From Nitrospinota bacterium (GTDB lineage Bacteria > Nitrospinota > Nitrospinia > Nitrospinales > Nitrospinaceae), in the NCBI GenBank assembly GCA_029879645.1, contig JAOUPX010000023.1, forward strand, positions 1-32,564: 32,564 nt of DNA, read 5' to 3'. The position numbers and the translations under genes were made by a program. The notes beneath the pieces were generated by a model. The model saw only the letters and a list, made by a program, of their open reading frames with translations. It had not been told where the DNA came from and made no database searches. Positions 11,053 to 20,156 of the stretch are shown in pieces (within the stretch, counting starts at the first letter, position 1; each line of letters begins with the position of its first letter).

Positions 11053-12609
11053 CTATTCCCACTCGATGGTGCCGGGGGGTTTGGAGCTGATGTCGTAGAC
11101 GACGCGGTTGACGCCTTTGACTTCGTTGATGATGCGGTTGGAAATTCTACCCAGCAGGTCGTAGGGCAGGGGCACCCAGTCGGCGGTCATGCCGTCGGTG
11201 CTGGTCACTGCGCGTAGGGCGACAACGTTTTCATACGTGCGGGCGTCACCCATCACGCCTACGGTTTTAACCGGCAGGAGCACTCCGAACGACTGCCAGA
11301 TTTTCTTGTACAGTCCCGCCGCCTTGATTTCTTCCAGAATAATTTTATCCGCCTCCTGCACTATGATGATCCGTTCCGGCGTCACGTCGTCGATGATGCG
11401 GATGGCCAGTCCCGGTCCGGGAAACGGTTGGCGAGAAATGATCTCGTCGGGCATTCCCATTTCGCGTCCCAGAGCGCGTACCTCGTCCTTGAACAATTCG
11501 CGGAGCGGTTCCACCAGTTCCATTTTCATATCTTCCGGCAGACCACCGACGTTGTGATGGGATTTGATCACCGCCGAGGGTCCTTTGAAGGAAACCGACT
11601 CGATCACATCCGGGTACAGGGTGCCCTGCGCGAGGAACTTGAAGTCGCCCGCCTTTTTCGCTTCCTCCTCGAACACGTGGATAAATGTATTGCCGATGAT
11701 TTTGCGTTTCTGTTCGGGATCGGTCACGCCCTTCAGTTTATCCAGGAATCGCTCTGACGCGTCGACGACTTTCAAGTTCATCTGAAAGTGTTCGCGAAAT
11801 GTTTCTTCAACTTTCAGGCGTTCCCCGAAGCGCAATAAACCGTTGTCGATGAAGATACAGATCAGCCGGTCGCCGATGGCCTTGTGCAGAAGCACGGCGA
11901 CGACGGAGGAATCGACCCCGCCGCTCAGCCCCAGCAGGACCTTTCCGTTTCCTACCTGATCCTGGATATTTTTAATCGCGTAGTCGGCGAACGACTCCAC
12001 CTTCCACAGCGGTTTGCATTTGCAGATATTGAACAGGAAATTCCGGATGATTTTGATTCCTTCCTGCGTGTGAACCACTTCCGGATGAAACTGCAGGCCG
12101 TAAATTTTATCAATGGAGTTTTCCATTGCCGCAACCGGGGAGTTGTCAGTGAACGCGGTGGTCTTGAATCCTTTCGGAAGTTTCGCAATGCGGTCGCCAT
12201 GGCTCATCCACACCACCGATTTACTGTGCACGTCCTTGAAGAGATGGGAGAATGTTTTCACCATTAACTCGGCGCGGCCGAATTCGCGTTCCTTAGCCGG
12301 ATTGACTTCTCCTTCCAAAAGGTGTGTGATCAACTGCATTCCGTAGCAGATTCCCAGTACCGGTACCCCCAATTGGAAGATTTTAGGGTCGACCAGCGGC
12401 GAATCGTCTTCCATCACGCTGGCGGGTCCGCCGGACAGGATGATGCCTTTAGGTCCGAAAGCCTCAATCGTCTGGAAATCGACCGTGCAGGGATGGATTT
12501 CGCAGTACACCTCGCATTCGCGCACTTTGCGGGCGATGTTCTGCGTATACTGCGATCCGAAATCAAGGATCAGGACTTTTTGCTCGTGGATATCGTTCGT
12601 GGTGGTCAT
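11053..12609 (-). CDS. guaA: GMP synthase (glutamine-hydrolysing)
   Basis: A 518-residue enzyme that converts XMP, ATP and glutamine to GMP, the last step of guanine nucleotide synthesis in the cytoplasm. The class I glutaminase domain has the nucleophile C88 in VLGICYGMQ and the H175/E177 pair in LQFHPEVVH. The ATP pyrophosphatase P-loop LSGGVDSS is at about 228-235, and the dimerisation domain ends in the family-typical [10 protein letters not shown]. Length is normal for the family. It lies 161 bases downstream of guaB on the same strand, with a repeat/terminator-like element between them. There is no strong ribosome-binding site. Confidence 0.98.
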
Positions 12610-12670
12610 AGGAAAATTATTTTTCTGTTAAATTAAAGCAATTCTGCAGGTTTGTTTGAGGACGAGAAGA

Positions 12671-12710
12671 AAATAAAAAAAGAGATCCTTCATCTCGTTC
12701 AGGATGACAT
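12671..12710 (-). repeat. Palindromic intergenic repeat with terminator-like hairpin between guaB and guaA
   Basis: On the minus strand the sequence reads GTCATCCTGAACGAGATGAAGG, then ATCTC and TTTTTTTATTT. GAGAT-GAAGG-ATCTC forms a short stem followed by seven T residues, as an intrinsic terminator would. The wider sequence resembles the dispersed GTCATYCTGAGCGAAGCGAAGRATCTC-type palindromic repeat found between genes in many bacteria. Here it could reduce guaA expression relative to guaB. Only one copy was seen in this window. Confidence 0.5.
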
Positions 12711-12770
12711 GGCGATGATTACCTTGCAGACGCCTGAACGTTTCAGCGAAATTGGCCCTGCGCCCGGCAG

Positions 12771-14234
12771 TTATTCGATATTGTAATTAGGAGCTTCCTT
12801 GGTCACGATCACGTCATGCACGTGGCTTTCTCTCAGGCCGGACGGTGTAATTTTGATGAACTGAGCCTTGGTACGCAGTTCCTGAATATTTTCGCATCCG
12901 CAATAACCCATGCCGGCCCGCAGTCCTCCCAACAGCTGGTGCACGGTGAACTCCACCGATCCCCGGTAAGGAATGCGTGCCTCGACGCCTTCGGGAACCA
13001 GTTTGCTTTCGTTCAGGCCCCGTTCCTGAAAATAACGGTCGCTACTGCCGTCGGACATGGCCCCGATCGAGCCCATGCCGCGATACTCTTTATAGCTTCG
13101 GCCCTGATACAGAATTTTTTCTCCCGGACTTTCCTCGGTTCCAGCGAATAGAGAACCGATCATCACGCTCGACGCTCCGGCGGCGATGGCCTTGGTGATA
13201 TCTCCCGAATGACGAATACCGCCGTCTGAAATGATGGGGATGCCCTTGGCTTCCGCGGCCGCGACGCATTTTTTTACAGCCGTGATCTGTGGAACACCCA
13301 CACCGGAGACCACCCGCGTGGTGCAGATCGATCCCGGACCGATACCGACTTTCACCGCGTCGGCCCCGGCTTTGATCAGGGCGGTGGTCCCCTCAGCGGT
13401 GGCGACATTGCCGCCGATCAGTTGCAGTTTCGGGAACGCCTTTTTAATTTCTTTGATGGTTTTCAGTACTTTTTCCGAATGGCCGTGGGCGCTGTCGATT
13501 ACCAGAACGTCCAGCCCCACCTCAACCATATCCCCGATGTGGTCCATATAACCGGAAGAAACACCCAGCGCCGCGCCTACCAGCAGTCGGCCTTTATCGT
13601 CCTTGGCAGAATTCGGGTACTCGGTCGATTTCAAAATATCCTTGAGGGTGAGCAAACCTTTCAAATTGCCTTTGCCATCAACGATCGGCAGCTTTTCGAT
13701 ACGGTGATCGTGAAGCAGTTTTTTGGATTGATCGAGGGAAATACCTTCCTTGATGGTGACCAGTTTATCTTTGGTCATCAGCGTGGACAGTTTTTTGGTC
13801 TTCTGGGTTTCAAAACGGATATCCCGGTTGGTGAGAATGCCCACCAGTTTTTTGCCCTGGGTAATCGGGATGCCGGTGATGTTGTATTTATCCATAATCT
13901 CCAGGGCTTCTCCCAATGTCTGGTCCGGCTGCAGGGTGATGGGGTCGTCAATGACCACACTGACGGCGCGCTTGACGCGGTCAATCATCTTGCGTTGTTG
14001 ATTGGGAGTCAGATTGCGGTGGATGATGCCAATGCCGCCCTCTTGCGCCAGAGCGATTGCCATGCCGGCTTCGGTAACCGTGTCCATGGGAGCGCTCAGC
14101 AGGGGACAGTTCAATAGAATATTTTTAGTCAGCCGGGTGGACAGGTCTACATCTGCTGGAAGTACCTTGGAATAGGCCGGCAAAAGGAGTACGTCATCAA
14201 ATGTGAGATAGGTTTCTGGTTCTTTCGTTGTCAT
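12771..14234 (-). CDS. guaB: Inosine-5'-monophosphate dehydrogenase
   Basis: IMP dehydrogenase oxidises IMP to XMP with NAD+, the first committed step to GMP. The ATG at 14232-14234 ([19 protein letters not shown]) is preferred to the track start at 14315 because it gives 487 residues, the usual length, and starts at the conserved N-terminus. Two CBS domains occupy about residues 95-205 and are inserted in the TIM barrel. The catalytic loop [14 protein letters not shown] places the nucleophile at C304, and [17 protein letters not shown] and the mobile-flap region with [11 protein letters not shown] follow. guaA lies downstream on the same strand. Neither possible start has a good ribosome-binding site. 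Confidence 0.97.
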
Positions 14235-14531
14235 GGATGTGTGGGAAGGAGGGGCGAATCCGGTACAAACCGTCCGCGCCGGTTCACAAAAAGTAATCTT
14301 ATCACGCCTCTTCATTCGTTTACATATTATTTTTTTTGTCTCCTGCTCCAGGGGGAATATTCAGGCTTTTATCCCCTCCGGGAAGCTTTTCTCATGGGAA
14401 AGACCAGGGGGCGATGGGTCGAGCGTTATTCTGGCGCGGCTAAGGGAGCCGATATCATCGAGTTTTATCAGTGGGCATCCGGGGTTAATTTTGAGTCCAG
14501 AGTATCGCAGGGATGTGTTAACCTGACAATT

Positions 14532-15977
14532 ATGAAGATAAAACGTTTGTTCGCCATTTTAGTGATTGGAGTATCCCTGCTTTGGGCCGGTGGGGTTTTC
14601 GCGGTGCCGATTACGGATTCGGACGATTGGTCCGGGACCTATTTCAACGGCAGTAAGATAGGGTTCAACCATGCCGGGGTCAAGGTGCGAAAGGGCAGGG
14701 TCGACGTCCATACCAAAATGTATTTCCGGCTGCAATCAGGCGAGGACGACCAATCCACGATATTGACCCAGGACACCACGCTGACTCCGGATTTGCGCCT
14801 TAAAGATTTTGTGATGCTCCAGGAAATCATGGGCAAACGGCAGGAAATTACCGGGCGCGTTCAAGGAAACCAACTGATTCTGGAGATCAGCGGTCGCGGT
14901 TTCCACAAACAGCAGACGCTGGATTTCCCGGCGGACACCTATCCCTCCTCAACCGTCTGGCTCAATATCATGAAAGAAGGATTTGAAGTCGGCAAGAAGG
15001 GCAAGTTCAACCTGTTCATTGAGGCGTTTCGGATGGTCATGCCCATGACCTATGAGATTTTGAGAAAAGAGACGATCAAGTTTGACGGGAAAAACGTAGA
15101 CACCTACGTGGTTCAGCAAAAGTTTGTTGGAATGACCACCACCCTGTGGGCCAATGCAGAGGGCGATGTGTATCGTGAACTTTCGCTCAATGGATTCGAG
15201 TCGGTCAAGGAAACAAAAGAGGTGGCGACCCGGCTGGGAGACAAGCCGATGTCGGTCAGCAGTTTTATTACCCTCAGCCTGGTCACTATCAAGAAACCCA
15301 TCGCCTCGCCGGACGATCAGGGAAGGCTGAAGCTGAAACTGATCAATGTGCATGGACCCGAATCCATCCCGCAGGACCACCGGCAAAAGGTCCTTAAAAC
15401 CGAGAAAAATGGCGAGGAGTCCTATACCACCACCCTGTTGATTCAACGGGAATCCAAGGCGCCGATCAAGAGGATGTCTCTGCCGATTTCCACCAAGGGG
15501 TATGAAGAATATCTGCAAGATGCCCCTGAGATCCAGGTTCAGCATCCTTTAATTCGTACTCTGGCGAAGGACCTGGTGGAAGGCGAAACAGATGCCTGGC
15601 AGGCGGCCAAGGTCATCAGTACCTGGGTCCATGACAACCTCGATAAGGTACTTGTGGATTCATTCACTGCACTGGATGCCCTGCATGACCGGCGCGGCGA
15701 ATGCCAGTCCCACACCAATCTGTTCACCGCGCTGGCCCGGGCTGCGGGAATACCTACCAAGGTTGTCAATGGCTTGGTGTACTCGCGCGAATTTAAAGGA
15801 TTTCTTTATCACGCCTGGCCCGAAGTCTGGGTTGGCGAATGGCGTGCTTTGGACCCCACCCTGGGGCAGCACCACGTCGATGCCACCCACATCAAGCTTT
15901 CAGAGGGAAATTATGAGGGCGCTTTGAAGCTGATGGAATTCATCGGTCAGGTCAATATTGAGCTGTTAGAGCAGTAA
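14532..15977 (+). CDS. Exported transglutaminase-like (papain-fold) protein
   Basis: The track ORF opens at 14241, but the ATG at 14532 begins a clear signal peptide (MKIKRLFAILVIGVSLLWAGGVFA) and gives 481 residues. The first 300 residues or so are beta-rich with no recognised family (DDWSGTYFNGSKIGF and onward). A transglutaminase-core domain follows, with a full triad: C391 in RRGECQSHTNLFTALARAAGIPT, H427 in YHAWPEVW and D441 in ALDPTLGQHH. Bacterial members act as periplasmic proteases or peptide-modifying enzymes, and the true substrate is rarely known. It diverges from guaB and is followed by the long nrdJ regulatory region, so it appears to be a single-gene unit. The ribosome-binding site is weak. 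Confidence 0.88.
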   Translation: MKIKRLFAILVIGVSLLWAGGVFAVPITDSDDWSGTYFNGSKIGFNHAGVKVRKGRVDVHTKMYFRLQSGEDDQSTILTQDTTLTPDLRLKDFVMLQEIMGKRQEITGRVQGNQLILEISGRGFHKQQTLDFPADTYPSSTVWLNIMKEGFEVGKKGKFNLFIEAFRMVMPMTYEILRKETIKFDGKNVDTYVVQQKFVGMTTTLWANAEGDVYRELSLNGFESVKETKEVATRLGDKPMSVSSFITLSLVTIKKPIASPDDQGRLKLKLINVHGPESIPQDHRQKVLKTEKNGEESYTTTLLIQRESKAPIKRMSLPISTKGYEEYLQDAPEIQVQHPLIRTLAKDLVEGETDAWQAAKVISTWVHDNLDKVLVDSFTALDALHDRRGECQSHTNLFTALARAAGIPTKVVNGLVYSREFKGFLYHAWPEVWVGEWRALDPTLGQHHVDATHIKLSEGNYEGALKLMEFIGQVNIELLEQ

Positions 15978-16330: not shown

Positions 16331-16358
16331 TTGACAACCCTATATATGGTGCTATTGT
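16331..16358 (+). promoter_or_regulatory. nrdJ promoter
   Basis: A perfect -35 TTGACA (16331-16336), a 16-base spacer and a -10 TATTGT (16353-16358, 4 of 6). Transcription should begin near 16365, leaving a leader of about 170 bases. The spacer is exactly the upstream NrdR box. Confidence 0.75.
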
Positions 16359-16384
16359 GGACTGCCAGCTACTAGATGTAGTGA
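16337..16384 (+). promoter_or_regulatory. Tandem NrdR boxes over the nrdJ promoter
   Basis: Two 16-base sites, ACCCTATATATGGTGC (16337-16352) and CTACTAGATGTAGTGA (16369-16384), each match most of the NrdR consensus acaCwAtATaTwGtgt. Their starts are 32 bases apart, close to three helical turns, which is the usual spacing of NrdR box pairs. The first fills the promoter spacer and the second covers the start of transcription, as expected for repression by the ATP/dATP-sensing regulator NrdR. Confidence 0.8.
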
Positions 16385-16538
16385 TTGGTAATTTTATTGG
16401 CTATCCCTACATTTATAGTAAGGAGAGGTTTGTAATTTGAAATTTAAAGTGAGTTGTCACTTAAATAGATAAAAAATATTTCTCGATTCAAGATGGATCG
16501 GGGAGTGAAAATTTTAATGTAAGTTTTTGGAGAGAATC

Positions 16539-19500
16539 ATGCACATTCACCGCACATTCACCCAGGGTTTGGACGACGCATACAGCGGCCTGACATTTGT
16601 AGAACGGATTTCGAAAATCATCAATGCCGATGGTTCGGTGGTTTCCGAGATTGATAAGGTTGGTGTGCCCAGTACGTGGTCCCAGGTGGCGGTGGATATC
16701 ATGGCCCAGAAATATTTCCGCAAAGCCGGGGTGCCGGCCCGCACCAAAAAGCGCTATGAGCATGATATTCCCGAATGGCTGTGTCCCTCCGAGCCGGATC
16801 TGGAAGCGCTTTCGCAATTGCCTGAAGAGGAGCGATACGGACGCGAAACCGATTCGCGTCAGGTGTTTCGCCGTCTGGCAGGGTGCTGGACGTATTGGGG
16901 CTGGAAAGAGGGATGCTTCAGCAACGAAGAAGCCGCCCGTTCATATTATGACGATATGCGTTACATGCTGGCCCGCCAGTATGCCGCCCCCAATTCCCCG
17001 CAATGGTTCAACACAGGGTTGAACTGGGCTTACGGCATTGAAGGACCGGCGCAGGGCCACTACTTCACTAATCCGGAAACCGGGCTTCCCGAAAAATCCA
17101 AATCCGCTTACGAGCGTCCGCAGCCACATGCCTGCTTCATTCTTTCAGTGAATGATGACTTGGTGAACGAAGGCGGCATCATGGACCTGTGGAACCAGGA
17201 AGCGCGTCTGTTCAAATACGGATCCGGTACCGGCACCAACTTTTCGAAACTGCGTGGATCGGGAGAGTCTCTTTCCGGCGGCGGCCAGTCGTCCGGCCTG
17301 ATGAGTTTTCTGAAGATCGGTGACCGCGCGGCGGGCGCCATCAAATCCGGAGGCACCACACGCCGCGCCGCCAAGATGGTCACTCTCGATATCGACCATC
17401 CCGACATCGAAGAATTCATCGAATGGAAAGTGAAAGAAGAGCGCAAAGTCGCCGCCCTGGCCGTGGGAAGCAAATTGTGCCGCAAGCATCTTAAGAACGT
17501 TTTACAGTCTTGCTGGGACTGGGACGACGAAGAGAACCGATTTAATATTCACTCCAACAAGAAACTGCGCAAAGCCGTACGCGAAGCGGTGCGCGATTTC
17601 ATTCCTGAAAACTACCTGTACCGCATTATCCAGCTGGGAGAACAGGGTGTGCGCGATATCGTGTTCGAGGAATACGACACCAACTGGACATCGGAGGCCT
17701 ACCAAACCGTTTCGGGGCAGAATTCCAACAACTCGGTGCGCCTGACCAACGATTTTCTGAAAGCGGTCGAAAACGACGGGGACTGGAACCTTACGTCCCG
17801 CACCAGCGGTAAGGCGGTGAAAACCGTAAAGGCCCGCGACTTGTGGGAGAAGGTCAACGAATCTTCCTGGTCCTCCGCCGATCCCGGTGTGCAGTTCGAC
17901 ACCACGGTCAACGAGTGGCATACCTGTCCGGAAGGCGGACGCATCAATGCATCGAATCCCTGTTCGGAATACATGTTTCTGGATGATACGGCGTGTAACC
18001 TGGCCTCCATCAACCTGATCAAATTTTATGATGAAGAGAGCGGGCAATTCGAGGTGGCGCGGTTTATCGATGCCTGCCGGTTGTGGACCCTGACTCTCGA
18101 AATCTCAGTAGCCATGGCGCAGTTTCCGAATAAGTCCATCGCCCAGAAAAGTTTTGAGTACCGCACCCTGGGTCTCGGCTATGCCAATCTCGGAACCCTG
18201 TTGATGGTTCAGGGTATTGCCTACGATTCGAAAGAAGCGTTGGCGATTACCGGTGCCATTACCGCGTTGATGACCGGCACCTCCTACGCCATGTCCGCTG
18301 AAATGGCCGCGGAACTTGGGCCGTTTAAACATTATGAAGCGAATAAGAAGCACATGTTGCGGGTGATCCGCAATCACCGCCGTGCGGCCTACAATTGTGA
18401 TTCGTATGAGTACGAAGGCCTCACCATTTTCCCGCAGGGCATCAATGCTGCGTATTGTCCCGAATACCTGCGGACGGCGGCAGTTGAATCGTGGGATCAT
18501 GCGCTGGAATTGGGCGTGCGCTACGGTTATCGCAACGCGCAGACCACTTGCATCGCTCCAACCGGCACCATCGGTTTGCTGATGGATTGCGACACCACCG
18601 GTATCGAACCCGACTTTGCCCTGGTCAAGTATAAAAAACTGGCGGGCGGCGGGTACTTCAAGATAATCAATCAGTCGGTGCCCATGGCGCTTAAGAGACT
18701 GGGTTACGCGGAACCGGAGATTCACGATATCGTCAGTTACTGTGTGGGTTCAGGCAGTCTGGTTGCCTCGCCGATCATCAACCACAAATCGCTGAAGGCC
18801 AAGGGCTTCACGGACGAAATTCTGGCTCAGGTGGAAAAGGAATTGCCGAAAGCGTTCGACATCACCTTTGCTTTCAACAAACACGTTCTGGGTGAAGCAT
18901 TTTGTCGGGAAATGCTCGGCATTTCCGATGAAATGTTGAATGATTTCAGCTTCAATCTGTTGAAGCACCTGGGTTTCACCGATGAAGATATCTGCAAGGC
19001 CAATGATGCCGTGTGCGGCACCATGACCATCGAAGGGGCGCCTCATCTCAAGGAAGAGCATTATTCCGTTTTCGACTGCGCCAATAAATGCGGCAAGTAC
19101 GGCAAGCGCTTTATCCGCCATGAAGCACACATCCATAAAATGGCGGCGGCTCAACCGTTTATCTCCGGGGCGATTTCCAAGACCATCAACATGCCGAACT
19201 CATCCACCGTCAAGGAAGTGGAAACGGCTCACATGATGTCCTGGAAACTGATGCTCAAGGGAACCGCAGTGTATCGGGACGGTTCCAAGCTCAGCCAGCC
19301 GCTCAACAGCGTGGCGGCAGACGACTTCAAGCTGTCCGAGCTTGAGGATGAAGAGGAGCGAACGCCTCTGAAAGTGGCCGAGCAGATGGTACAGGTGATC
19401 AAGAAACGCCATACCCTTCCGCATCGCCGGAAGGGTTACACTCAGAAAGCCGTGGTCGGCGGTCACAAAGTGTATCTGCGCACCGGAGAATACAAGGACG

Positions 19501-20156
19501 GAACGTTGGGTGAAATTTTTATCGACATGCACAAGGAAGGCGCCGCTTACAGAAGCCTGATGAACTGCTTCGCCATTTCCATTTCCCTCGGTCTGCAACA
19601 CGGCGTTCCCCTTGAGGAATTTGTCGACGCCTTCGTCTTTACCCGGTTCGAGCCCAACGGCATCGTTATCGGCAATGACCGAATTTCCATGTCTACTTCG
19701 ACTATTGATTATATTTTCCGGGAGCTTGCCATCAATTACCTGGGCCGGAACGATCTGGCCCAGGTAACTCCTGACGATTTGCGTTCCGACGCGCTTCAGA
19801 AAAATGAAGAAGTGTCATCGGAAGATGATGAGGAAGCAGGCGAAGGCACGATTATCGACTTGGATCTGGGGATTGACGAGGATACTCCGCCCACGGACGC
19901 CCCTCCTCAAACTTCAGAAGCGGATTCGCGCCCGGTTGCCGGTAACGGTAATGGAACCTCTAATGGTGGTAATGTAACGTCGACGGCCATGGGGACACTG
20001 GTTTTAAACCAACGAGGTTTGAAAAACGGATCCGCGCTGGCCAAATTAAAAGGGTATGAGGGTGACCCGTGCGGCGAGTGCGGACAACTCACTCTGGTTC
20101 GAAACGGCACCTGCCTGAAATGTTTGTCCTGCGGTGCAACATCCGGGTGTTCATGA
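16539..20156 (+). CDS. nrdJ: Vitamin B12-dependent (class II) ribonucleoside-diphosphate reductase
   Basis: This adenosylcobalamin-dependent enzyme reduces ribonucleotides to deoxyribonucleotides, with or without oxygen. The ATG at 16539 follows GGAGAG closely; the track start at 16527 is a TTG. The 1205-residue protein is of the long class II type. The catalytic-barrel landmarks are [18 protein letters not shown] near 199, [14 protein letters not shown] near 227, [21 protein letters not shown] from 473, and [21 protein letters not shown]-type domain follows ([22 protein letters not shown]...). After an acidic, Gly/Asn-rich linker comes a C-terminal zinc-ribbon-like tail, [22 protein letters not shown], which should include the cysteines that re-reduce the active site. 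It is a single-gene unit, bounded by the NrdR-controlled promoter and a strong terminator. Confidence 0.97.

Follow-up and report, generated by a model that had tools for sequence, protein, structure and literature searches.

NrdR control of class II RNR genes through a pair of boxes that overlaps the promoter is already known from Streptomyces and Pseudomonas. In Streptomyces coelicolor, such 16-base box pairs occur at the nrdRJ (class II) and nrdAB promoters, and the class II promoter resembles the one described here in this respect (PMC9110341). The nrdJ promoter of Pseudomonas aeruginosa likewise carries two boxes, the first of which overlaps the -10 element (PMC4409342), and the NrdR sites of Escherichia coli and Listeria are, as here, pairs that overlap the RNA polymerase site, with the boxes 15-16 bases apart (PMC12176259, PMC12051234). 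In the NrdR proteins that have been studied, a tetramer loaded with dATP and ATP binds both boxes (PMC12051234, PMC9110341, PMC12176259). Box gaps of 14-17 bp were bound well by four of the studied proteins (PMC12051234), a range that includes the gap of 16 found here.

The window analysed in this study is a stretch of 32,564 nucleotides, contig C144 of a 3.2-Mb Nitrospinota MAG with an estimated completeness of 94%. By nrdJ, the nearest named relatives are Nitrospinaceae MAGs with about 90% identity. We read the site upstream of nrdJ as the NrdR operator of this gene, at which dATP-loaded NrdR would repress transcription by barring RNA polymerase, and we place the probability of this whole explanation at roughly 0.93. 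Judged by its sequence, the site would be an ordinary NrdR operator, in a phylum for which we found no earlier description.

The box pair at the nrdJ promoter

The initial annotation had placed TTGACA, a first box, TATTGT and a second box in this region, with the two boxes 32 bases apart from start to start. Direct reading confirmed these positions and the spacing, which corresponds to a 16-base gap (Table 1). The pair lies about 155 bases upstream of nrdJ, and the -35 and -10 hexamers combined match the consensus at 10 of 12 positions. Transcription would be expected to start near 16365, which would place box 2 within the first transcribed bases.

Table 1. Features of the nrdJ region, in window coordinates.
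Feature	Position	Strand	Remarks
TTGACA, -35 hexamer of the sigma-70 promoter predicted for nrdJ	16331..16336	+	Read directly
NrdR box 1, ACCCTATATATGGTGC	16337..16352	+	Exactly 16 bases; fills the -35/-10 spacer
-10 hexamer TATTGT	16353..16358	+	Predicted; TGC directly before it (extended -10)
NrdR box 2, CTACTAGATGTAGTGA	16369..16384	+	Ten bases after TATTGT
9-pair hairpin in the nrdJ 5' leader	16478..16506	+	All 63 cells paired in 7 genus members
nrdJ ribosome binding site GGAGAG	16529..16534	+	Conserved in the genus
nrdJ, adenosylcobalamin-dependent class II RNR	16539..20156	+	1205 aa; ATG at 16539; NF005736

In its general build, the site has the features of NrdR operators. It consists of two 16-bp palindromes like acaCwAtATaTwGtgt, it overlaps the predicted promoter of an RNR gene, and its gap falls within the 14-17 bp class (the other class being 24-27 bp; PMC12051234). 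Box 1 departs from the strict consensus at 3 positions; box 2, which is degenerate by this measure and fits the Nitrospinota matrix, departs from it at about 5. A plain consensus search recovered box 1 only, and an equally good match occurred in 18 of 100 shuffles, so a single box is not significant alone.

Scored as a pair, the boxes stand out. The initial annotation had called for a matrix scan, and with a two-box matrix built solely from 41 promoters of other Nitrospinota genera, the nrdJ site scored 26.4. In 60 Markov-simulated windows, searched on both strands, the median was 2.4 and the highest score 9.5. None of 2000 simulated intergenic regions reached the score of the nrdJ site. With a symmetric matrix, the nrdJ pair scored 31.5; six simulated 3.2-Mb genomes gave at most 21.4, and the maximum under an AT-rich composition was 22.8 (twelve simulated 3.2-Mb genomes in all). 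A genome-wide sequence profile built without this genus also ranked the nrdJ site first, at a modest E of 0.04.

Upstream of the promoter, the gene preceding nrdJ (14241-15977) encodes a protein with a transglutaminase-like core (PF01841), and the 561-base gap from 15977 to nrdJ is mostly unexplained. The genes guaA and guaB (GMP synthase and IMP dehydrogenase) lie nearby on the other strand, at 11053-14315 of the window.

Conservation of the arrangement in Nitrospinota and other phyla

The initial annotation had made its proposal depend on the boxes being conserved in related nrdJ promoters. All 49 distinct nrdJ promoters read from this order of Nitrospinota carry the pair, with a box 1 to box 2 distance of 31-33 bases in each (a gap of 15-17 bp). 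Invariant across these promoters are C at position 4, A-T at 8-9 and G at 13 of box 1, and C at 4, A at 6 and T at 9 of box 2. Within the genus, few parts of the region are as well conserved as the segment that runs from TTGACA to slightly beyond box 2.

The promoter itself is conserved relative to the boxes. Two promoter-like sites were found in the nrdJ upstream region, no excess over shuffles, and the promoter call therefore rests on conservation. TTGACA directly abuts box 1 in 36 of the 49 distinct promoters. When the best sigma-70 promoter was picked freely over a 140-base range, it started 5-9 bases ahead of box 1 in 45 of the 49, with box 1 between the -35 and -10 elements; the position of box 1 in the spacer is thus a conserved arrangement. 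The coincidence of box 1, base for base, with a 16-base spacer, as first annotated, holds in the present genome and fails as a general rule. By automatic choice, the exact fit was recovered in 6 of 7 genus members and in three other promoters, with spacings elsewhere mostly of 15 or 17; it belongs mainly to this genus.

Several Nitrospinota genomes carry further box pairs. One (G025) has an additional pair (L175:1983-2027) that lies about 750 bases further upstream than the pair at nrdJ, and another (G050) has two nrdJ copies (L017, L053), each with its own pair. In genus g9, pairs precede small genes at L173:1978-2015, L189:2015-2053 and L171:1971-2015, the first of them with TTGACA in front. 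The small genes (89-aa MATPKYIEFLNSTGADID...) have no Pfam or NCBIfam match. A link between their proteins and NrdJ was considered and rejected, as the two show no similarity.

Beyond Nitrospinota, nrdJ upstream regions from other phyla were scored against their own shuffles, and nrdR was searched for in the same genomes. Each of the 11 genomes with an unambiguous nrdR had the box pair, which none of 100 shuffles equalled, and none of the 16 genomes without nrdR had it. These counts form a phylogenetic profile and not a set of independent trials, given that the genomes were picked after box scoring and that presence follows phyla. One Ignavibacteria genome combined weak nrdR-like fragments with a weak pair (4 of 100 shuffles). 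Promoter-like hexamers adjoin the boxes in various ways in these phyla. A TTGACG-like hexamer forms the end of box 2 in Bradyrhizobium and Microvirga; in an Acidobacteria MAG (L110), TTGACA is followed by box 2; and in Myxococcota MAGs (L082, L091), TTGCGT or TTGATG is followed by box 1.

These results bear on the suggestion that the boxes arose by chance in AT-rich DNA, or that they serve an unrelated regulator. Chance matches to single boxes are indeed fairly frequent. The pair, however, is significant in simulated windows and simulated genomes and is conserved throughout the phylum, and nrdR presence tracks box presence across phyla. We consider either form of this suggestion extremely improbable.

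NrdR, NrdJ and the mode of control

A search for nrdR, which the initial annotation had proposed as a check, found one canonical gene in the present genome, on contig C165 behind a glyA-like gene; it encodes 153 aa. Its product scores 189.9 bits against TIGR00244 (cut-off 124.65), has the four-cysteine Zn-ribbon (PF22811) and ATP-cone (PF03477) of an NrdR protein (about 150 aa), and is homologous to solved NrdR proteins, with which it aligns over 145 residues. From the translation, it carries C3, C6, C31, C34, D15, R17 and R26-R29. In Streptomyces NrdR, D15 and R17 are reported to matter for DNA specificity, and R26-29 to touch the DNA backbone (PMC9110341). Within the order, 27 of 28 genomes of good quality yielded an nrdR, the present one included. 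The two-box matrix gave no box pair near nrdR that would point to autoregulation.

The presumed target appears to be the cell's sole RNR. NrdJ scores 1974.6 bits against the class II family profile NF005736 (cut-off 1737), and no other RNR large subunit was found in the genome. No NrdB or NrdD partner was found in 31 genomes including the present one, in a search that detected its positive controls. A Pfam search detected no ATP-cone in NrdJ itself, which would leave dATP control of the enzyme to NrdR. For Nitrospinota such as these, which rely on one B12-dependent RNR, NrdR would then be the main dATP brake.

By analogy with the studied proteins, we infer that NrdR binds at nrdJ, that binding depends on nucleotides, and that it represses the gene. 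With dATP plentiful, an NrdR tetramer carrying dATP and ATP (or ADP) would bind both boxes, the centres of which are separated by about three helical turns. The sequence most naturally suggests competition with RNA polymerase, because box 1 lies in the -35/-10 spacer; with box 2 at about +4 to +20, NrdR and RNA polymerase would be mutually exclusive and nrdJ would be repressed. A fall in dNTPs would release NrdR and allow the cell's only RNR to be made.

NrdR may also bind here and act in a different way, mainly through DNA bending or a block to promoter escape, or as an activator in some conditions. Each box is sharply kinked by NrdR in the Streptomyces complex (PMC12051234, PMC9110341), and the NrdR of Pseudomonas aeruginosa activates topA from a single box (PMC4409342). 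In Alphaproteobacteria and in one Acidobacteria relative, moreover, the boxes lie elsewhere relative to promoter-like hexamers, which indicates that occupancy of the spacer is not generally needed. The conserved position of box 1 in 45 of 49 Nitrospinota promoters argues against such a mode of action, as does the rise in nrd expression on nrdR deletion in several bacteria (PMC12176259), and we regard it as unlikely. Simple exclusion of RNA polymerase remains our preferred reading.

We also considered whether nrdJ could be under B12 control through a riboswitch or another leader RNA, with the boxes being secondary. The gene has a leader of about 170 bases that includes the conserved hairpin (Table 1), and B12 riboswitches do occur in this genome, which carries two RF00174 cobalamin riboswitches, one beside cobS/cobU and the other beside a btuB-like receptor gene. 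Their occurrence elsewhere makes absence at nrdJ meaningful. In agreement with the initial annotation, which had predicted control by nucleotide sensing rather than by a B12 riboswitch, the window contains no Rfam match, and the leader gave none, RF00174 included, even at E up to 1. The hairpin shows no two-sided compensatory change among the 7 genus members, and much of the leader varies among relatives, whereas the box region does not. B12 control through a leader RNA, with the boxes in a secondary role, is thus very improbable, though a hidden second layer of control may exist.

A second candidate site and comparison with described systems

A genome-wide profile search of 61 genomes suggested that the NrdR regulon of Nitrospinota may extend beyond nrdJ. 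In 17 genomes, matches other than nrdJ fell at one shared place, the intergenic gap that separates mrp/apbC from a divergently oriented parC-parE operon; its location was checked by reference to the coordinates of mrp and to parC in L182. The only other profile matches in the present genome fall in the same gap and are weak (E 2.6-4.2). They correspond to a pair, ATACAAGATATGGGGG and ATACTACATATGGTCG, 32 bases apart and outside the window, at about 40203-40250 of G000:C92 (around 2004-2051 of L183), which scores 28.2 with the symmetric matrix, above every simulated genome. The ParC protein exceeds the TIGR01062 cut-off, and there is a separate gyrA-like gene on C193.

Of the parCE-mrp intergenic regions, 36 of 51 (some of them duplicates) contain a pair for which no more than 2 of 200 shuffles were as good. 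Toward parC, box 1 is in most regions immediately preceded by CTTGCTTTATA or a similar sequence, and its end overlaps a TATA-like hexamer. The parC promoter predicted in most of them is TTGCTT, 17 bases, and TATATA or TATAAA, an arrangement that resembles nrdJ. In the genus studied here, a clear pair is kept in only 2 of 6 genomes. No good parC -35 is visible in the present genome, and the target gene is accordingly uncertain in this species.

We lean slightly toward the view that the NrdR of Nitrospinota also governs topoisomerase IV, through a pair 31-32 bases apart from start to start that overlaps the predicted parC promoter in most genera. Nucleotide status would then set decatenation capacity (or the supply of an Fe-S carrier) together with dNTP synthesis. 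We found no report of parCE control in the literature on NrdR with topoisomerase IV, parC, parE or gyrA (Rodionov and Gelfand, 2005, was outside the scope of this search). If true, the parCE site would tie chromosome decatenation to nucleotide sensing, more broadly than the single topA precedent in Pseudomonas.

Among described systems, Streptomyces coelicolor offers a regulator of the same family, with D15, R17 and R26-29 present in both proteins (PMC9110341). Its nrdR is co-transcribed with nrdJ, whereas the present nrdR lies behind glyA on a different contig from nrdJ and has no box pair nearby; and Streptomyces has a class I RNR as well, whereas nrdJ is the only RNR found here (PMC9110341). 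In Pseudomonas aeruginosa, NrdR targets nrdJ, nrdA, nrdD and topA, so that a class II nrdJ target is common to both organisms (PMC4409342). Three RNR classes coexist there, as compared to one here, and its topoisomerase target, topA, has one box and is activated, while the candidate here is parCE with a box pair (PMC4409342). The Escherichia coli and Listeria sites, in turn, serve class I and class III RNRs (PMC12176259, PMC12051234), in contrast to the class II enzyme of this genome. Set beside these systems, the nrdJ site would extend a widespread bacterial switch for dNTP control to the little-studied Nitrospinota.
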